Source: Dolomedes plantarius
Taxonomy: Eukaryota; Arthropoda; Arachnida; Araneae; Dolomedidae
DNA: 64,000 nucleotides
Reading direction: 5' to 3'
NCBI GenBank assembly: GCA_907164885.2
Contig: OU015498.1
Span: 91,753,733-91,817,732 of the forward strand
Notes under the pieces: generated by a model
Told to the model about the DNA's origin: nothing
The model's database searches: none
What the model saw: only the letters and a program-made list of their open reading frames with translations
Translations under genes and position numbers: made by a program
In this document: in pieces, positions 31,857-58,233 of the stretch
Position numbering within the stretch: position 1 is the stretch's first letter
Layout of the letters: each line of letters opens with the position of its first letter

Positions 31857-31865
31857 TATTTACCC

Positions 31866-32456
31866 CAGTCAAAATAGACCCGATTTTGACGAATGGCTAA
31901 AAAAAATATGAAAGTTTTGAAATTTGGTGGAGATGTTTGTTTAGGTATGCTAATGAACATACTAAAAGTCCCCACCGATCAGACTTGAGCTTTCGCTGCC
32001 ATCTTGGAAAATGTGTACACTTTTTTGGTTTTTTGGAAATAACTTTAAAAATATTGATTTTATAAAAAATAATTAAATACAAAAATTAAAGAACATTAAA
32101 TTATGAACAAAAATCATTCATAACATTTTTTATATGTCTAACAGGAACAAAGATAATTGACTTTGAAAAGAGCGCACTATCACACCTGGGACGCGCAAGC
32201 GCGGTTCGCCATCGCGGTGGGGGAAATACCCGCGCATATGCATACCATAATTAGCCAAATTAGTTTTACACTAAATGGGAATGTATTTTGTATTTTTTCA
32301 AATAGCTAGGGAAATATTAACTTTACGTAAAAAAAGTTTATTTCAAAAATTAAAAAACATTAAATTATGTACAAAAATGATGTTATACATTTTTGTCGTA
32401 AACCTAACAGGAACGAAGATATTGACTAAAAAATGCGCGTTGATAATGGAGGTAGC
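31866..32456. repeat. Left TIR of TE-A
   Basis: It includes GCGCACTATCACACCTGGG, GCGGTTCGCCATCGCGGTGG and two copies of a TAACAGGAACRAAGATA-like motif (32140 and 32406) about 266 bp apart, all found inverted at the right end. Confidence 0.85.
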
Positions 32457-32658
32457 TTTAAAGTCTCGTTGCAGGCGCTCTTCTTCGAATATCTAACCTC
32501 TCCCACATTTCGGCATTCTTTAAACACAAGAAAATAGACTTTAATGTTTTTGGCTATGTAGATAATTAATCCTTATTAATTTTATACATGAATGTTGTAA
32601 ACTTGGGGGTATTCACTATCAGATTTCCATTGCGAATAATTGTTCAAGCTTACCTACT

Positions 32659-35255
32659 TCAGGATTTACGTGCTTTTTTCGGTACGGGATTCTCCCCTTC
32701 GTCAGGCATGTATAGATCGTCTATGGATCCGCTAGCATCGGCCCATTCATCAACTTCTTTCATTCGATCGTCATCATCAACAGGGCTGATGCCATTCTGA
32801 CATACCCCATTGCAATTATTGCAGGCTGTTGTGCAGTTGATGCCTGCTTTCCGACATCCGCATCTTACTAAATTGTCAGTCTTACAGTTGCAAAACACCA
32901 TGTTTAAAACTGAATCGGGAGCTACTGCATCCATAGTTGTGATGGGCACAACAATTTTCTCTTGACGCTTCCAGCCTCACAGGCAGTTGGGCCTTTCATT
33001 TTCAGGTGCTCCAAAGTCTTCCTCATTTTAATTTCGATGGCTCGTATTTGAGTGTGTGCGTTTAAGGTTTCTTGCGATGGTGGTTCAGTAGCAAAATCTC
33101 GAATCAACTCACGGAGATATTTACATTCCAAATCCGATATGTCCATGCCATCAAAAATTATTTTTGCTAAAGCTGTTTGGGTCAAATGAGCTCGGACTGC
33201 CCTAGCGTATGCATGGCCAGGCAACATTTTTTCTACTGACGTAGGTGCATAAATCAAAGTTAATATTTATTTCAACCCACTTCCAGCCATTATGTACCCA
33301 ATGCAGCCTAAGAATGACATTAAAAAATAGAATCCACCAAGCCTCACAATATAACTTGATAATAATGGATTGGATGTTGCTGCTACTATCTCTCGAGATT
33401 TAATATACAGTCATTGGTCAATCGTGAGTATGCAAGATTTTTGGTGCACTTTAACACACTGCTGGGCAGCATATTTCAGCACAGTGAAAATGGTGTCATA
33501 CTTGCTTGGTGGTAAAATAACAAAAGGAAGGGGTATTACTTTGGTCTTTTCACAAGGCTGGTTTCTGGTTATACAATGAAAAAATCCTTTCCATTCAGGT
33601 ATCTGTGGAAGACCTAACCACTTAGCACACATCCAGGAGATATCAGATGGTTTAGGCAGTGGTAAATCTTCCGCTAAAGGATTTAAGACATTCAAATCTT
33701 CGATAGTAATTGTTTGTAACCCAGGCCCTCGAAAATTTTCAAACGTTTCTAGAGGAATGATTCCCATTTTGCCTACGGTCGATGCGGATGTAAGTTCGGT
33801 TAATTTTTTTATCTTCGTCCTGGGTTCCACTGCTGACGCTGGAGTAAAACAAACAATGCCCCCCATGCTATGAAACTTATTCAGGCCATCGATTGTCGAC
33901 ACATTGAAATCTGCATTGTCAAATACGAATTGGCAGAATGATCCCTCGCGCATTTGGGGTTGCGGATGATTTATGGCTGACATCTCAAGTGTTTGGGCTT
34001 CATAGTAAGAAGAACAAAATCCCAAATTCGAGAGCATTGTTATTAAATTCTTGGAACAGAACTTTTTGTACAAAAATAAATCAAGACCATTGAGCAGAGG
34101 AGACATATATGATCGTGGCCTTATATGATCGTGGCTGATAGATCGTGGCTGATCGTGGCTAGACATATATGATCGTGGCTGATATAATGACGTGAGCTAT
34201 TGACGTGACTTTTTTTCCGCCTTAGCAGTCTTTTTTTTAATAATCAAGTGCTCCAAAAAAGATTTTAGGCTTTCTGGAATTCCCTTGTTCACATCTCTGA
34301 AAAAATTATCACTTGGAGGGTAGCAATGAGTGTCATAAACTGGTGTCTGGATATCTTCTTTTATTATGGCTGCAGCAGTTTGTACTATTCGTAGACGCTC
34401 CTCACGATCATTTCGTATCCTTTTGTCGTACCAAGAGTCTGATAAGACTTTCATTCCAGTATTACGTAAACATATGACAGTAACTTTTTTGGAGTTTAAA
34501 GCAAAAATAATGCCATCCCCGTATTTTTGTTTCAACTTATTTCTCAAAGTGATGTCGTCTGGAACTAGCCCTGTAATTTGAGATTTGAGTTCAGGTAGTG
34601 AGAATTGACAGTCGTCATTATTATCAAGGAAGAAGGATATTTCGTCTACAGCTGCTGAGGCGTAATTCGACTCAGGCCGCCCTCTCTTTCTGATTGGTGC
34701 AGTGTGTAGAAAAAAAGTCATGAAGTAATCTTGGTGATAAATCGCATCAGCTGCAACTAAATCAGCAACGTTTATTATACGACACTGAACTTCCTCTCCC
34801 CACTGGTCATGTCTATTCTCTGCAGCTTCAAGAACTTTGTGTTTCATTTCGAGACTTCTAACTTCGTATATAGTTCTTCGTCTGTCAGTTGGTTTTTTCT
34901 TTTGTCTTGCTTTGAATTCTTCGTCTATCACTGCCGTACAAAAGAAACATTTTGTTCGAAAATCGAACTGAGGTAAAAAAGATCGTAAACTTACCGCGCG
35001 CTCTTCACTTTGGGATGTTGACGCGATTTCTGCATTTCTTTTTAAATCAACTTTTATATTTCCTGGTCTGGTGTAATTTCTCAGACACAACGAATGAACC
35101 GAAACAGATTTTAAATGTTCCAACTGTTCGTGCTCATTGTCTTTTCTTTGGACACTAGCTCTCTTTAAAGCGTCGATCCCCTTTTCTCCTACATTCACGA
35201 AATCATCATTTGACATTAATTTTTTACTTATAAAACATAGTTCAGTATCAGCCAT
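32659..35255 (-). pseudogene. TE-A protein, N-terminal half plus CXC tail, broken and internally deleted
   Basis: The start MADTELCFISKKLMSNDD at 35255 opens a 352-codon frame with a cysteine pair (RTKCFFCTAVIDEE) and a long helical region. After a small minisatellite (34105-34185) the frame continues at 34166-33411 with SYMSPLLNGLDLFLYKKF, FVFDNADFNVSTIDGLN and FHSMGGIVCFTP, then in further frames to 32922 (HAYARAVRAHLTQ). The text then jumps to a C-terminal cysteine cluster, FCNCKTDNLVRCGCRKAGIN then CTTACNNC (32890-32820), like CXC/tesmin DNA-binding domains, and ends with an acidic tail. I know this layout from many unnamed proteins in animal genomes, where a nuclease-like region lies between the two parts. 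Here that region is deleted. Confidence 0.7.
34105..34185. repeat. GATCGTGGCT minisatellite in the TE-A gene
   Basis: Five copies of ATGATCGTGGC or GATCGTGGCT with TATA spacers interrupt the coding frame between 34197 and 34166. It arose within the coding sequence. Confidence 0.8.
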
Positions 35256-35490
35256 TGTTCACAGACGCACACGGAACGGTGACTAACTATTAACTGGCTA
35301 GGAAAATACTAGGGTAAGACCGATTTGGCGCCTTACGGTATGCACATGCACGTGTCTTCCAGCCATCACGATGGGCACCCACGCATGCGCGTCCCTGGTG
35401 TAATAGTGCGCTCTTTCCAAAGTCAATTATCTTTGTTCGTGTTAGACTTAAAAAAATATAATATGTTTATTGTGCATTGTTTTTTGTAGA
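35256..35490 (-). promoter_or_regulatory. Likely promoter and extra TIR-motif copy of TE-A
   Basis: Between the start codon and the right TIR lies a further, diverged copy of the TIR core: TAATAGTGCGCTCTTTCCAA then GTCAATTATCTTTGTTCGTG (35401-35445), matching 35763-35812. Repetition of the same motif next to the gene start would fit transposase binding or autoregulation, but this is inference. Confidence 0.4.
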
Positions 35491-36073
35491 AGCTATCTCC
35501 ATTATCAACGCGCATTTTATAGTCAATATCTTCGTTCCTGTTAGGTTTACGACAAAAATGTATAAAATCATTTTTGTACATAATTTAATGCTTTATAATT
35601 TTTGAAATAAACTTTTTTTATGTAAAGTTAATATTTCCCTAGTTATTTTAAAAAATACAAAAACCTTCCCATTTAGTGTAAAACTAATTTGGCTAATTAT
35701 GGTATTCACATGCGCGGGTATTTCCCCCCACCGCGATGGCGAACCGCGCTTGCGCGTCCCAAGTGTGATAGTGCGCTCTTTTCAAAGTCAATTATCTTTG
35801 TTCCTGTTAGACATATAAAAAAATGTTATGAATGATTTTTGTTCATAATTTAATGTTCTTTAATTTTTGTATTTAATTATTTTTTATAAAATCAATATTT
35901 TTAAAGTTATTTCCAAAAAACCAAAAAAGTATACACATTTTCCAAGATGGCGGCAAAAGCTCAAGTCTGATCGGTGGGGACTTTTAGTATGTTCATTAGC
36001 ATGCCTAAACAAACATCTCCACCAATTTTCAAAACTTTCATATTTTTTTTAGCCATAAAACCTATTTTGACTG
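35491..36073. repeat. Right TIR of TE-A
   Basis: Inverted copy of 31866-32456. Tip CTATTTTGACTG, with the GCGCACTATCAC and GCGAACCGCGCTTGCGCG blocks in opposite orientation. Confidence 0.85.
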
Positions 36074-36159
36074 TGCTTTTAATACTTATCTTTTCATGTT
36101 TTTAGTTCTTGGCTGCAAGTAGCTTTAGAGCTCATACTGGTTTTTCATTTTCAACTTCG

Positions 36160-49620: not shown

Positions 49621-50619
49621 ATCCTGAAGAGTTTCAATTTTGTGAAATAACTACACTAACATTTTCCTATGTATTGCAAAAACCGTGAGCTTGTCTGAAG
49701 TTAAAACGTAGCCAAAAATTTCCTTAAAATATGGACATGAGTTACCGAGTTTTACGTAACTTTGATTCTACTTCGCACTGTTATTCATGATTAAGTTCAA
49801 ACTCCACAGCTGTCAGCTGTCAGCCAAAAAATGGAATTTTTTTTTTTTTTGCGTGAGTCCAAACAATTTTATTTTCAGAAAAAAACGAAACCAAATCTGT
49901 CACGTGGCTCTACGCCGCGGAAAGAGAGAAGAAAAGATGACGCTTGAATTATTTTTTGAAAACTGGAAATTCCACCCAAACTGCTGTCATCAGTAGTATT
50001 CTTTGTTGAGTACTGACAGGCTACTTCTCACAATTATGAGAAATACTCAAATCTGGTTAATGAATTATGAACAACTTTTATAGACTATATAGACGAATTA
50101 AATTATCTCGAAATAAATAGTCATTTGCATACAATATGAAAACTAGATAAAATTCTTTATTATGTATGACTAGTATGCGACCCAGAAAGTCGTGGGTGTA
50201 TGATTTTGTCAAAATGCCATAAAAGTCAGTATTTTAATATGTCTGTAATATAAACTAGAAAGTGGTAACATTTATTATATAAGTTATAATTTTTGCCTGT
50301 TTTAATATTGATCTATTAAAAACAACCCTTCTTTTAAAAATCAAAATATCAGCAATATTGAAGTTAAAGTTTAAACTATATCTTACTCAATAAAATTTCA
50401 GTAACTGTAGATAAAAGATGTCATTAACATTCCATGTTTAACTTTTGAATAAAAATACTGTTTAGAATAAAAATATATTGTTTCTGAATCCCTGTTCAAA
50501 TAATACATTATTAATGCGTACTAATGTGAAACAGACTTTACGAATTCTTTTCGGTAAAATTTATCACGTAGAAGAATTTTAATTTTGGGAAATTATACCG
50601 ATGAGCATATCTACACATA
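49621..50619. other. Intergenic stretch, no gene recognised
   Basis: AT-rich spacer without a supported frame. Confidence 0.55.
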
Positions 50620-50826
50620 GTCCGGTAGCTTATAGCTGTATTTTAAGATTACCGTTACTTGGCGGATAAAAGCACCAAATTTGTTTATGAAGGTACCTTA
50701 GAATAAAGACCTTAATCAAGACAGTTTAATATACTAATAAAAGTTAGCCTAGGAGCCCTCTGGAATTTCTAAAAATTTTCATGTACAGCACTAAAATCCA
50801 AAATGGCCGACTACGACCAAATATCA
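50620..50826. repeat. Left TIR of TE-B
   Basis: Inverted partner of 57568-57738. It includes an insertion of about 30 bp after GAAGGTACCTTA. Confidence 0.8.
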
Positions 50827-51394
50827 TGTGTGAATCTTTCTTTTCGAGACACCACTACTGCAAAAACCATAAAAAAAAAGGAGATTTGTGATGTTGTGTT
50901 GCAGAAGTTGACCATCGCAACACATTGATTAAACAGGTTATAGATGTCATTAGACAAACTATTCAATTCCTTAATCCAGGACCAGTAACAGTCATTAATT
51001 TAATCAACCTCTGTTTGCCCTAAGTTTGTACAGTAGAAATGGCCGAACACTCATGGTGAGCGACTTCAAGTGGTTATTCTAGATGGACTGCACATTGAAA
51101 TGGCCCTCTGGAATACATTGGGAGATGTCTTGGAAGGATCTGGCTGGACCACTGCCCTTGTAGATGCATAAGTGGCATCCTTTGGCAAGGCTAAATGTTA
51201 CTTAAAGGCAGCACACTTAACTCGAACTAGGCATTCTCATCAAATCACTCTAATGGCCCTGCACAATCTCCAGTATGAAGCTTTCCTACTCTCTGAGAGC
51301 CCCAAAGATGAAGTGTCTGAAATAGACTGGAGAAACGCATGCAGAAAAGGAGTCCAACTTTCATGTATTGAGACTTGATCATGGAGTATGAAAC

Positions 51395-52269
51395 TGTAGC
51401 GAACTGAGGTTCGTAGTGTCAACCAGAAGATGATTTAAACACACCAGGTATACATCACTCATTTCATAAACAAAACAAATGCAATTTATTAATCAAATTG
51501 ATGATGATGAGATATGTACACTGCACAGATGTAAGATGAACTTCGTAACTTAGGTAATCACACTCGATTTAATCGGCGTGGGGCGGAGTAAGAACACAGA
51601 AGTCCGCTAGGCTAGCAGAACTGGCTCTGCTTCAATGATGAAGAAACGGCACTTCTCCTGACGGGAAAGGGCTCCCCAATAATATCAACGGCGGTGATCA
51701 CTGCACGCACCCGGTAGCGATGAAAATATTAAATTAAGGAGAAAGGACTCCTCACTGGAAAATAAGGTAGCAAAGGCTCCTTCCACAAAGACTGGTCTCC
51801 GACAAATTAGTGGAGTATGTTTACTCCTGCAGGAACTAGATCATCGCTGCAAACAGTCACAAGGGACTCTGAACCGGTAAGGGCGGCAAACCCGGCTGCT
51901 CTTAAAACTCGATCCGCTACGTGTCAGGAACTAAAAGACGCAAGCCACGACTGAGGGGTCCATTCTCTTTTTATAGAAGAACCTCCACCGGATATTGCAT
52001 CACTCTCCAGAAAGTCGAACGATCTAGAACAAGTGAGCAACGGAAATGGGTTTCCTGGGGCGATAATGAAATATTTTCCCCGGGTCTAAAGCGGCCGCCT
52101 TTTTAGTTTGTCCTCCAAGCCACTTCAAAGAGTCTCAAAGGGCCGCTTCGGTAAAATGCGAAAGGCACGAGTCCTTTTGTTTAGGCACGCGACGCCTCCA
52201 GGATGCTGCTTAACAATTGATAGTTCATGAATGAAAGCACCTGGGGCCTCCTGTCATTTATAACCAACA
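51395..52269 (-). repeat. Inserted block, possible solo LTR
   Basis: It is more GC-rich than its surroundings and splits the TE-B coding region between the LSCIET block and AHREKNCSLYVA. On the minus strand it would run from TGTTGGTTATAAATGACAGG to CTCAGTTCGCTACA, with AATAAATTGCAT near its 3' end. TG...CA ends and the polyadenylation signal suggest an LTR. No matching target duplication was found, so the borders are uncertain. Confidence 0.35.
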
Positions 52270-53870
52270 TCAGCGGTGTCACCCAGTGGCGATGACTAAA
52301 TCAAGAAAAATGACCATGTCCCCTAAGGTTCTGTGGAACAAGTCTATCGGATGAACAAAAGGAAAATTGCCGTCAGCATATTGCCACCTAAGTCGTCGGA
52401 AATCTTTTGATGGGTCTCAGGCCGAGATAGAAGAATTTCTTTTGTTAACGGAGAGGTTGAAATGCAATACTCTACAAAACCCTTATACTAATTTTCATTA
52501 GAGCTCACAGGGAAAAGAACTGTAGTCTTTATGTTGCTGTCTTAGAGGAACTTACACCACTATTCTTTGCCTTGGATCCTGCAAACTACTCAAAAGGGAA
52601 GCCTGTCCACATCAGGGATATGAAGTACTTGCCTGACGCTATCAAGAATCAGTTTGAGCGATGTTCTAACTGGGACATTTCAAAAACATTCAACACATTT
52701 TCTACAATACCATTCGATCAGGCTCACGAACAAGAGAACATAATTGAGAAAGGTTCGAGTGGGGTTGTTGGGATCACAGTAAACCCTGTTGCTTTCTGAC
52801 GATGGATGCTTTCAGGGCCTGAGATTGCCAGAATGATCAAACAGTTTGAAGAAGAATGCATTTTGGATAATGATGACACAGATAATCCCAAGAATTTCCA
52901 ACATCATGAGCAGGGACTTTCATCACAGAAGAACTTTCAGCAACAGGTTGTTAGTCTATGTAAAACCATCAATGAAATGGGCTATTCCTTCTTGGATGAT
53001 TTCCCTAATCTAGTAAGTCTTCACAGTCGCAATTACGCAAGTGAGTCGATGGTTGTAACCTTACGCACCTTGGCGGACATAGGCAAACGGCAGTATCAGG
53101 ACGTCAAGAATGTGCTTGATGAGCGCATTCTCTGTATACATGACCCAATCAAGAATTCTCTTGCACTCTTGAAGAGAACAAAGCATAAAGTAACATCTCA
53201 TCAAGGAAAGAGGCTGAAAGTGCTTCAAAACAATGTGGAACTATTTAACCAACTATATATATATATACCTATGAAGAACCGGGAATCTGATTTGGATGAG
53301 TTTTTTGCGCATGAGAAACAGTTATTCCCTCCTTCCATTTCAGACTTTGGTAAGCTTCATTTGCCAACCAACAAGGCTGGGATACTGCAGTGTCTTGAGC
53401 ATCCAGGTCAATCGGAGCCCCCTTCAACCTATGACTCCAAATTTCTGGACGGTGTTGTCATCGTTCACTGCCTGCTCACTACTAGTGTAGACACCTTTAA
53501 TCAGTATGCCGATAAGGTATTTCTACCTTACCTTCTCATAAGCAGCTGGAGATGCCCAAAGGCTAGATGTTGTTTCGGACACCTGCATTCCAGACAGTTT
53601 AAGGAGTATACCCGGGAAAAAAGAGGTAAGGGGATTCGAAGGAAAGTATCTGGCAACGCCAAACTGCTACGAAATTGGATGGACTTTCTCCGTGACTCAA
53701 TGAACAAGAAGGAACTGTTAAATTTTTTGACTTCCAAAGTTGTAAAGTTCAACTGGCCACCAGGCAAAGATGTATATGTCACAAGAGGGAATGCAGTTGC
53801 ACAAATCGGTTAGAACACAACCATGGAAAACTGCAGTCATGAAGGGGCAGACACGAGGCTTCCTGTTCAT

Positions 53871-56470
53871 TAGGGCGGAGCGTAAAAAAAAAGTTTTCGA
53901 TTTCGGTTTTGCCCTAGTGCGGAAAAGTTGGGTACTGGTGGGTAGGTCACGTATACAAAGTTTTGGGAAAAATAAAAAATATCTTCCGTCTCCATTTCGG
54001 CCGTGATTTTTAGCAGATTTTTACCATATAGTAAAAAATGTGTATTTCCATTGTTTTGTATGCAACTCATCATTTTGTTCTTAAATAAAATACAGAGGTA
54101 ATTCGAAACTTAATACAGAAAGGCAGCAGCTGACACACTGCGTGCAGAAAGGTAAAGAAATATTTTGGCATGAAAACATTGTCGACAACAACTTTAGAAA
54201 CGAAGCTTAAAACCTTCGTAAAAGACTCACGGAAATTGTTCGACATTTCTTCATGTAAGTGTGCTTCTTTTAACAAATGTTCTTGCCCAAATCATAAAAG
54301 GATTCCTGAAATGAAAAGAACTTTTCTTATAGACCAACGGGTACTTAGGCAAATGTCCATAGGCGCAGTTGACTTAAACTGAAAGCTGGTGAAACGAGCC
54401 GATAGGAAGCAGAAAGAGCCAGAAGCAGTAAATCTTAAAATAAATGTTTCGCCATCTGTTACTCCATCTAGGCTCATATTTCCTGATCCAGATTCTGAAC
54501 TTGCATTCACATAACTCCGATAGTGACACAGATTACTTGAAGCCTTCCCCATCCACATCCAGGATGACCCAATCTGAAGGGAAAATGAAGTTACGATCAA
54601 GCCGATACCCAGCAGTTGCTATAGCTTGTGGAAGAACCGGAGTTTCAGATCGGACTGGAGCCATCATTGCAAGCGCTGTTTTGGAAGATTTGGGGAGGAT
54701 TACCGAAACACACACTTTAAATGTGATTGATAGACATAAAATAAGAAGAGAGAGGGAAAAAAATTCGGAAAGAATATCAGCAAATAAAAGACAGCTGAAA
54801 CCACTGAAGGGACTTTATTTTGACGGAAGGAAGGACAAAACTCTAATGCAAGAGAGCGTAGGGGGAAAGATGTACCAGAAAACAGTCCTGGAAGAAAACG
54901 TTTCAATGATTAAGGAACCTGGAAGCAAGTACCTTGGACACATAGCACTAACCTCATCATCAGCTTTGAGTATTTCTCAAATTATGCTTCAATGCATGTA
55001 GAATAAGAATATTGACATTTATCAACTAGTAGCAATAGGGTGCGATGGATCAGTCGTTAATGCCGGCTATAAAATCGGCGTGATTCACCTTTCTGGGGAA
55101 TCCATTGGGAAACCCTTGCACTGGTTTATCTGTCACGCATATCTGCCACGTATATCTGTCACGCGTTACACGCAAATGAGTTGCCACTCCAATATTTAGT
55201 GCAGCATTTGGATGGTGGAACGAGTGGCCCTAATGCATTTTCTGGTCCTACTGGGAAAGCATTGGCAAATTGTAAAAACCTCCCAGTTGAGAGATTTGTA
55301 GAGATTTAGAGCGAATTTCGAAAATCGACATAAAGTATCTTAGCACACACAAGCGATAGCTTTGGGATATTTGTCAAGCTGTCACAAATAGAAACTGCTC
55401 ATCAAGTTTGTCACAAAAGCACCCTGGGAAAATGTCTCATGCACGTTGGCTAACAACTGCAAATCGAATGAAGCGTTTATACATTAACTCGTCAGAGCTT
55501 TCAAACCGACTTCAAACTCTGGCAGAGTTCATCATGAAAGTGTACCCACCTATGTGGTTTACAGTAAAATTAAATCCATATTGCACGTATGGTCCACGAA
55601 ATTTGTGGAAGACAATAAACGTCTCACGCTATCTTAAAAACGATTTAAAGACTGTGGTCGATCCCATTATCCAGAGAAATGGCTATTTTGGCCACCCGGA
55701 AGCAATAATATTGTCAATGGTCACAAACGACAGACAGTCCATTCGAGAACTTGGACTACGTAGGATTTTCCGAGCAAGAAAAAAAAAGAAAGAAATCAGA
55801 CACTACAACATTTCGTCACTCAACTTCGAGGCAGTTTCATATATAGACCTTATTGATTGGCAGAAATGCAATTTGACGGAACCCCCGAAAACACCTCACT
55901 TGAAAGAAGATGATTTGAGAAATTTGATTTCCAGTGGATAGTCTGTAGCTCAACACCTTGGAAGTCTAAAATTCCCTTGCCACACACAAAGTGTTCAACG
56001 TTTCATGAAACTAGTAACAGAGGTTTCTGCGGCTGTGTGTGGAGAAAATAAGTGTGACGGTTTAGTTAGAACCCGAACAGAGTCGAGAAAAGCTATGCTA
56101 TCATTTGTAATCAAATGCGAGTACCGAGTAAAACTGGAATAACTGCAAGGGCAAAGGAGTTATGTGCCGATACGGTTGGGTGGATAAGTGGGCACGGGTG
56201 GAACTCGCAATGCAGCCACCTCCCCATGGTGAGTTCTGGGTTTTTTCTGAATTTTATTTCAGAAAAAGCGAAAAGCTGCATACAAAACAATGGAAATACA
56301 CATTCTTAGCTGTATGGTAAAAATCTGCTAAAAATCACGGCCGAAATGGAGACGGAAGATATATTTTGTTTTTCCCAAAACTTTGCATACGTGACCTACC
56401 CACCAGTACTCAACTTTTCCGCACTAGGGCAAAAACAAAATCGAAAACTTTTTTTTTACGCTCCGCCCTA
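53871..56470 (+). mobile_element. Nested 2.6 kb DNA transposon with 194 bp TIRs and 8 bp target duplication
   Basis: CTGTTCAT is duplicated exactly at 53863-53870 and 56471-56478. The ends read TAGGGCGGAGCGTAAAAAAA and, inverted, the same. The inverted repeats (53871-54064 and 56277-56470) look over 90% alike by eye. Removing the element and one target copy joins the TE-B coding region in frame across the insertion (codons for ADTR then DTDV). It encodes its own broken transposase-like protein. Its flawless target duplication shows it is younger than TE-B. Confidence 0.92.
54165..56256 (+). pseudogene. Transposase-like protein of the nested element, broken
   Basis: Frames in order: KTFVKDSRKLFDISSCKC and CSCPNHKRIPEMKRTFL (54200-54345; a Cys-rich stretch that may bind zinc), an acidic/serine linker (54500), SRYPAVAIACGRTGVSDRT and GLYFDGRKDKT (54600-54845), LVAIGCDGSVVNAGYKIGVI (55027), QHLDGGTSGPNAFSGPTGKA (55202), then 55408-55941 with HARWLTTANRMKRLY, PPMWFTVKLNP, NGYFGHPEAIILSMV and LNFEAVSYIDLIDW. 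Conserved Asp residues in FDGRKD and CDGS are candidates for a DDE-type active site. I recognise this as a common uncharacterised protein family of arthropod genomes but cannot assign a superfamily; the 8 bp duplication fits hAT-like or KDZ-like groups. At least five frameshifts or stops. Confidence 0.65.
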
Positions 56471-57072
56471 CTGTTCATGTACTCCATACATTACAGCAAG
56501 GGGCAAAGAGTATCCTTGTGCTTACTGTAGACACAGATGTGATTGTCATCATTGCTGCCGCATTCTAAGAACTAATAGTGACTCAACCATTGGTCGATAT
56601 CTGGGTAGCCTTTGGCATGGGCAAGCATTACAGGTTTTACCACATCAACTCCATCTGTACAAGCTTGGGGGAGCCAAAATCACGAGCACTACCTGTGTTT
56701 CACTCATACTCTCGTTGCGACACAACCTTCGCCTTCAAAGGTAAGAGTAAGAAGTTCATTTGGGAAGCATGACAAGCATTTCAATACATCACTAATACAT
56801 TTGTGTATTTGGCCACTCATCCATTCCAACTGCTGCAAGCTGACTCACACTTCAAGAAGCTGGAATGACTGACTGTTGTTCATATGATAAAACCACTCCT
56901 CTCAGCAGAATCAACCAGATAAGAAAGGAGCTTTTTCTGTCACAGGAATCAAGCAATGGACAAATTTCCACTGACTGAGGATGCTCTTCTACAACATATC
57001 CGAAAGGCAGTTTATCAAGCAGGTATTTGGACGACCAGCACACAAACACAGCAAGTGATTCCTTCTCCGTAG

Positions 57073-57143
57073 AATTTTGCTTGGTTGGTTGGTTGGTTGG
57101 GGTTTAATGGCGCAAAGTCCAGAGAGGACAAGCTGCGCCTGGA
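57073..57143 (+). repeat. SINE fragment inside TE-B
   Basis: TTGCTTGGTTGGTTGGTTGG followed by GGTTTAATGGCGCAAAG interrupts the TE-B frame near its C terminus. TTTTGCTTGG occurs at both sides (57073 and 57145), which looks like its target duplication. The (GGTT)n tract recalls 4430-4450. Confidence 0.6.
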
Positions 57144-57567
57144 TTTTGCTTGGAATAAGGTTTCAGAGTCATGGGTACCAGTTTGGATGACTATTCTAGA
57201 GGTTTCCCGATCATGCAGGGAATTGATTAAACGTTCCTGCAAAGGAGACTGCAACAGCTTGAAATGTGGGAAAGACAATCTGGACTGCTCACCACTTTGC
57301 AAGTGCAAGTGTAATTTACAAGTGTAATTTATTATAACTGTTTCATACTGAATTCTATTGAATGAATAGCTGCAAATATTTTGTTTTGTTTTGGGAACAC
57401 TTGTTAGCATTATATTTGTACTTATAATTTACTGTAATAAATTATATGGATATATTTTATTGTATTTTATTTAATATGTAGACTACACTAAGTTTGGTTT
57501 GTAGTGTACTTAGTTGGCATAAAGCTGTAATTGAAAATTAACAGTAAAATAGATTGTATCAAAAGTG

Positions 57568-57738
57568 ATATTTTGTCGTATTTGTCGGCCATTTTGGATT
57601 TTAGTGCCATACATGAAAATTTTTAGAAATTCCAGAGGGCTCCTAGGCTAATATTTATTAGTATACCCTAAGGTACCTTCATACCAAATTTGGTGCTTTT
57701 ATCCGCCAGGTCACGGTAATTTCATTAAGCGACCGGAC
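57568..57738. repeat. Right TIR of TE-B
   Basis: Inverted partner of 50620-50826. Confidence 0.8.
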
Positions 57739-58233
57739 AAACAATACTAAAGCTTTAAGTCTGTCTGTATTTAAATGCATTATAGCAAGGAAACAGTGTA
57801 CGTTATTAATGAATACTAGCCACTTTATTCTGTTTTATACAAAAGGAAAAAAATTGTCATTGCTGTAGTACACATTTCTAATGAGGTTGTGTACTCAAAA
57901 TCTACAATTGATATCTACCCATTGACTCTGACTATACTTAAATGTAATACAGCAAAAACAATGCATAATAATAAATATTAAATGGTTTAAGGTATTTTTC
58001 TAGATAAAATTTTTCTCCGTTGGTTTTAGTACTCATTTCCAACGAGATTGGGTGGTCAGATCTACAATTGACTGCTACCCACTCAATGTGAGTGTACTTA
58101 AATACAATACAGCAATCCCCACCGGCATGAATTTTCCCTGGCATATAGCCTTAGTCTCTTGATCGGGTCCTGTCAGGTTCATTGAAAATACAATACCGCA
58201 AAAATAGTGCTCGCTTTTTTTTATCATCAATAT
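57739..58233. repeat. About 155 bp satellite (family S), left part
   Basis: The anchor ATTTCTAATGAG (or a variant) occurs at 57874 and 58035. Each monomer also has TACTTAAATGCAATACAGC and GGTGTTTTGCTAA-like blocks. The satellite continues at 60152 and 62566 after two transposons. Confidence 0.85.

Follow-up and report, generated by a model that had tools for sequence, protein, structure and literature searches.

What kind of transposon leaves, in one stretch of DNA, two elements with different ends that appear to encode two parts of one kind of protein? This question is raised by a 64,000-nucleotide segment of the Dolomedes plantarius genome (contig OU015498.1, positions 91,753,733 to 91,817,732; hereafter, the window), which contains two elements bounded by terminal inverted repeats (TIRs), TE-A and TE-B (Table 1). 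The original prediction, made from the sequence alone, held that TE-B encodes nuclease-like Asp motifs followed by a Cys-rich tail and has lost the N-terminal half of a protein of which TE-A has lost the middle, that the two elements argue for a whole superfamily, and that structure prediction might reveal a FEN1-like active site. The analysis described here bears out this picture: TE-B is, very probably, a non-autonomous and decayed member of a cut-and-paste transposon family of the Academ type (AcademX lineage, with a DDE transposase and an XPG-like nuclease), and its status as an additional member of the known Academ transposons, not a new kind of element, is well supported.

TE-B spans positions 50618-57740 of the window, with inverted-repeat arms that lie about 7 kb apart and pair over 36 nt (94% complementarity) and 82 nt (95%). 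The inverted repeats had been recognized correctly, but the boundaries originally given (50620..57738) have to be moved by 2 bases outward at each end: in other genome copies, the duplicated 3 bases start outside the flanking TA, so that this TA is part of the TIR. A search of the genome (2.78 Gb, 390 contigs) with the 5' end of the window copy (581 bp) yielded at least 39 further copies (one of them split in two; the best 40 of 441 first-look candidates were scored), nearly all, among the matches listed, at 85-91% identity; with the left TIR alone as the query, 31 of the 40 listed places were those already found with the 5' end. The terminal sequences TAGTCCGG...CCGGACTA, or nearly identical ones, are present in 16 copies with both flanks readable (the window copy and 15 others), and 13 of these 16 are flanked by an exact 3-bp target site duplication (TSD), for which the chance expectation is 1/64 per copy; in the window copy, the duplicated site is ACA. 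This count leaves out L024, in which no left end was found, and L014, L015, and L018, in which a flank lies outside the fetched stretch.

By tblastn, TE-B carries the last 60% of a protein of about 1,460 amino acids. The pieces match residues 622-725, 730-746, 743-1205, and 1201-1462 of P0008, collinearly and at 57-69% identity, and no protein match was found before about residue 587 in this comparison. The motifs VDTDVIVI, SRCDTTFAF, and CKGDC...CKCKC share one frame, with stops in between. Both the motif order, in a region homologous to real proteins, and the loss of the N-terminal half are thus as originally described. With the middle part of TE-B as the query, 108 relatives were detected at E <= 0.001 among 3,173 candidates; 27 of these are 1,404-1,608 amino acids long, and those with a named source, including Nematostella, Synaphobranchus, Entelurus, Myxine, Petrolisthes, Nymphon, Lytechinus, and Amphimedon, are shorter. 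Among the names shown for the 108 proteins, none refers to a transposon. From N- to C-terminus, an intact family protein is predicted to consist of conserved Cys/His motifs, which probably bind zinc, and a winged-helix-like region, an RNase-H transposase core, an EXO1/FEN1/XPG-like nuclease that has the usual carboxylates, and a Cys-rich tail. The decayed copy in the window shares 58-61% identity with eel, pipefish, and hagfish proteins (P0005, P0006, and P0007) and 36-40% with those of a sea spider (P0058, P0086, P0093, and P0102); horizontal transfer of TE-B relatives is possible.

TE-A retains only residues 1-750 and 1370-1463 of P0109, the middle being missing, and TE-B retains nothing before about residue 587, so that the two elements indeed carry complementary parts of distantly homologous proteins. 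Two TE-A copies for which both ends were retrieved read TAGCCCAGTC...GACTGGGGTA and are flanked by exact 3-bp duplications (CAA and AGA); in the window TE-A, the right end is changed and no duplication is visible. Apart from the shared initial TA, the TIRs of TE-A and TE-B differ, and the duplications are 3 bp long in both families. The TE-A query retrieved 47 other proteins among 4,033 candidates, with insects as the named sources and the rust fungus Austropuccinia as the sole exception. The two protein families align over 1,303 columns with 16% identity (E 7e-114); four parts of the protein also align separately (E 8e-25, 8e-35, 3e-35, and 3e-13), and the controls gave E values of 0.34 and 0.13 with shuffled columns and 0.74 across domains. 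The fuller relatives of TE-A and TE-B are thus homologous, which agrees with the proposal of one kind of protein in both elements. A further link is the Pfam domain DUF6589 (unknown function), which is present in members of both families: in 8 of the 108 TE-B relatives according to precomputed annotation, in P0032 among three TE-B-family proteins scanned, and in 7 of 20 members of the TE-A family (E no higher than 1, lowest 5.8e-5). We also considered TE-A and TE-B as halves of a single element; the different TIRs and the 16% identity of the protein families speak against this, and the idea was dropped. TE-A seems to be young and abundant, with at least 42 TIR matches, including that of the window copy, nearly all at 97-98% identity (the best 40 of 1,887 first-look candidates were scored). 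The Austropuccinia psidii relative, P0117, may reflect contamination or transfer.

The Pfam scan detected no XPG or DDE family above the Pfam thresholds, no helicase family in P0008, P0013, and P0032, and a weak match to 5_3_exonuc_N in one TE-A-family member (E 0.16). Searches of PDB by sequence alone gave three chance matches for the C-terminal part (E >= 0.36) and no match for the A1 and A2 profiles. AlphaFold2 produced a confident model of an RNase-H transposase, nearest to the P-element transposase; the predicted fold resembles those of the P element, Transib, and RAG1, with middling Z scores, and the core appears to be P-element/Transib-like, with a catalytic D-D-E triad and a helical insertion. 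The model of the C-terminal domain, which contains the nuclease motifs, is closest to EXO1, FEN1, and XPG. An unrelated fold for the nuclease or transposase parts is contradicted by these models.

Residue conservation was assessed in 42 of the 108 TE-B relatives and 20 of the 47 TE-A relatives, picked mainly by length. In the TE-B family (P0010 numbering), all 42 sequences have the nuclease carboxylates D740, D779, D783, E872, E873, D875, D899, D901, and D962 as well as E502, the transposase Glu; D115 and D118 occur in all 31 sequences that extend to these positions, and D290 in all 39 that extend to it. In the TE-A family, all 20 sequences have D437, D440, D603, E848, D1070, D1110, D1182, D1184, D1207, D1209, and D1263. 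Two of the nuclease motifs are VDTDVIVI and GCDTTS; others are HEEADTR (TE-B) or GDADTLI (TE-A) and LDGA/VDGG. We take the carboxylates to be those of FEN1 by their order and spacing. Both sets of acidic residues, DDE and nuclease, are thus kept across two very distant families, and their lack of substitution in all aligned members argues that the DTD and CDT motifs are part of a predicted FEN1-like nuclease site.

The window copy of TE-B itself is dead, degenerate, and non-autonomous: the N-terminal half is gone, the DQPL motif region is frameshifted and the codon of the second catalytic Asp is Asn, there is an in-frame TGA at 52797, the nuclease positions 1104, 1108, and 1197 (P0008) are lost, and the gene is broken by insertions. 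D1065, E1196, D1199, D1223, D1225, and D1286 are kept. Two sets of genome copies were compared with it: L009-L020 (12 copies), selected by the window 5' end, which favors the deletion lineage, and 12 of the copies L021-L034, selected by protein similarity to P0008; because of this mode of selection, the proportions below are no census. In all 13 copies of the 5'-end set (window included), residues 1-585 are missing and DQPL is out of frame with the preceding coding sequence; the second catalytic Asp codon is Asn in eight and Asp in five. Among the protein-picked copies, all 12 preserve the frame before DQPL, 11 have Asp at this codon, and 11 retain at least 200 of residues 1-585. The window copy therefore comes from a lineage that multiplied despite both losses. 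Residues 1-924 (L021/L033) or 1-939 (L022) survive in other copies that share these TIRs and have 3-bp duplications, and the natural reading is that members of the deletion lineage are non-autonomous passengers, moved in trans by such fuller copies with the same ends.

TE-B is interrupted by three insertions that were absent from the original prediction, namely, a solo long terminal repeat (LTR), a nested transposon (TE-C), and a short piece resembling a short interspersed nuclear element (SINE). TE-C holds remnants of a transposase-like protein of about 750 amino acids, with GCDG, CxxH, and W motifs that may be hAT-like; this protein has 112 relatives among 493 candidates, some of them in moths, butterflies, and beetles, and precomputed Pfam annotation is blank for 110 of the 112. 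The SINE-like insert is present in 12 of the 13 copies picked by the 5' end (window counted; L016 lacks it) and in none of the 12 picked by protein, nine of which reach the insertion place; it is a marker of the TE-B lineage without the N-terminal part.

Table 1. Features of TE-B, its insertions, and TE-A in the window
Feature	Position	Strand	Basis
TSD, left copy, ACA	50615..50617		sequence; exact 3-bp duplication in 13/16 testable copies
Left TIR, starts TAGTCCGGTAGC	50618..50826	+	inverted repeat; genome copies
Transposase gene 5' remnant: P0032 604-628 (~P0008 587-611), then P0008 622-746; frameshifted around second catalytic Asp	50922..51398	+	tblastn; frames
Solo LTR, TGTAG...CTACA, 4-bp duplication AAAC	51395..52476		L011, L020 uninterrupted here
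Transposase middle, P0008 743-1205, one in-frame TGA; catalytic Glu (DQAHEQ) and first nuclease motif region	52473..53870	+	protein match
8-bp duplication CTGTTCAT from TE-C, left copy (right copy 56471-56478)	53863..53870		L011 uninterrupted
TE-C, nested 2.6-kb TIR transposon, ends TAGGGCGGAG...CTCCGCCCTA, TIR ~200 nt at 92%	53871..56470	+	inverted repeat; L011 uninterrupted site
C-terminal part, P0008 1201-1462: remaining XPG/FEN1-like nuclease (VDTDVIVI, SRCDTTFAF) and Cys-rich tail (CKGDC...CKCKC)	56464..57315	+	protein match; predicted fold
SINE-like insert, GGTTGG...GGCGCAAAG, flanking duplication ~14 bp	57085..57139		comparison of copies
Right TIR, terminal TA = AA here	57566..57740	-	inverted repeat; genome copies
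TSD, right copy, ACA	57741..57743		genome copies
TE-A, second family; ends approximate, right end altered; TIR arms 31893-32458 / 35490-36056; P0109 1-750 and 1370-1463	31861..36078	-	inverted repeat; protein match

How could such a protein move an element? TIR binding would fall to the N-terminal Cys/His and winged-helix-like parts, and the cutting of the element ends and their joining to the target, with a stagger of 3 bp, to the P-element-like DDE site; in excision or joining, the XPG-like site would trim or cut either the second strand or 5' flaps, and the Cys tail would aid DNA binding; the deletion lineage would be mobilized by the same machinery, supplied in trans by fuller copies. We tentatively suggest, as a scheme that may well prove wrong, that movement requires two different catalytic nucleases within a single transposase polypeptide: one strand would be processed by a P-element-like DDE site, and the opposite strand, or flaps, by a structure-specific nuclease of the XPG/EXO1 type. 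If so, cut-and-paste transposition would here depend on two enzymes, a mechanism of which we know no tested parallel among DDE transposons. The role of an XPG-like flap or junction nuclease within a DDE transposase now becomes a testable question, and many unnamed, 'uncharacterized' or 'hypothetical' proteins, along with DUF6589, are linked to a single type of transposon whose layout can be defined.

The deletion lineage might be less passive than we propose if a truncated protein, consisting of the nuclease and the Cys tail, were still made and had a function, for example, in repression or as the subunit of a nuclease. The copies without the N-terminal part do keep nuclease carboxylates at many positions, and the SINE-like insert lies inside an open frame of the window (57073-57327). 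However, recent descent explains the retained carboxylates, the loss of residues 1-585 and of the DQPL frame extends to all 13 copies, and the window gene has scattered stops, all of which makes an active product quite unlikely. Far less credible still, and already contradicted by the present results, is the chance capture of a host FEN1/EXO1-like gene fragment between unrelated inverted repeats: transposons are generally able to capture host fragments, but the nuclease and transposase parts belong to one protein in the 42 aligned relatives, the joint layout is also found in relatives from several named phyla, and the TE-A family, whose TIRs are different, has it too.

A more serious, although still improbable, alternative is that TE-A and TE-B form a separate, unnamed superfamily that is Academ-like only in the nuclease and the 3-bp duplication. 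Both elements are filed under Academ via the published description of AcademX, not by direct alignment with a named Academ sequence, and Pfam gives only DUF6589, in some members. Nevertheless, the nuclease and the duplication length both agree with that description, and the mean length of curated bivalve Academ elements, 5,565 bp (PMC10294476), is close to what a 1,460-amino-acid gene and TIRs would need. A wholly new superfamily was dropped as a candidate because Academ fits better.

The assignment to AcademX rests on the fit of all testable features, namely, the TIRs, the 3-bp duplication, the nuclease, which in AcademX is of the XPG type, and the DDE transposase. The source works on the Academ superfamily and the AcademX lineage are reportedly those of Kapitonov and Jurka (2010) and Kojima (2020). 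Our literature searches found no paper that pairs Academ with XPG as whole words and none on DUF6589, and both words, Academ and XPG, are absent from PMC3985635. Academ and AcademX are known here from PMC10045372 and PMC4455052; according to the former, AcademX combines a nuclease with a 3 or 4 bp target duplication, and AcademH has a helicase and 9 or 10 bp duplications, and Academ is listed as one of 17 DDE/D superfamilies in PMC10294476.

Compared by description, TE-B shares with AcademX the organization of a eukaryotic TIR DNA transposon with a DDE-type transposase, a nuclease, and a duplication of 3 or 4 bp, and no difference emerged from this comparison: the element has TIRs, the duplication is present in 13 of 16 TE-B copies and in both fetched TE-A copies (none in the window TE-A), the predicted EXO1/FEN1/XPG fold comes with invariant carboxylates in 42 and 20 members, and the predicted RNase-H fold with unsubstituted D, D, and E. 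AcademH, as described there, belongs to the same superfamily by name, but TE-B has a 3-bp, not a 9 or 10 bp, duplication, and the AcademH helicase has no counterpart in the Pfam scan of three TE-B relatives. For the P element transposase (6pe2, 6p5a), the identity is 9%; P elements generate 8-bp duplications, unlike the 3 bp of TE-B, and, to our knowledge, lack an XPG-like domain. The predicted TE-B family nuclease has a fold like that of EXO1, FEN1, and XPG (3qe9, 3q8m, 6tux) and, presumably, the same order of carboxylates; however, those are cellular repair enzymes, with 12-14% identity, whereas the nuclease of the TE-B family is part of a polypeptide that also contains a transposase and a Cys tail.
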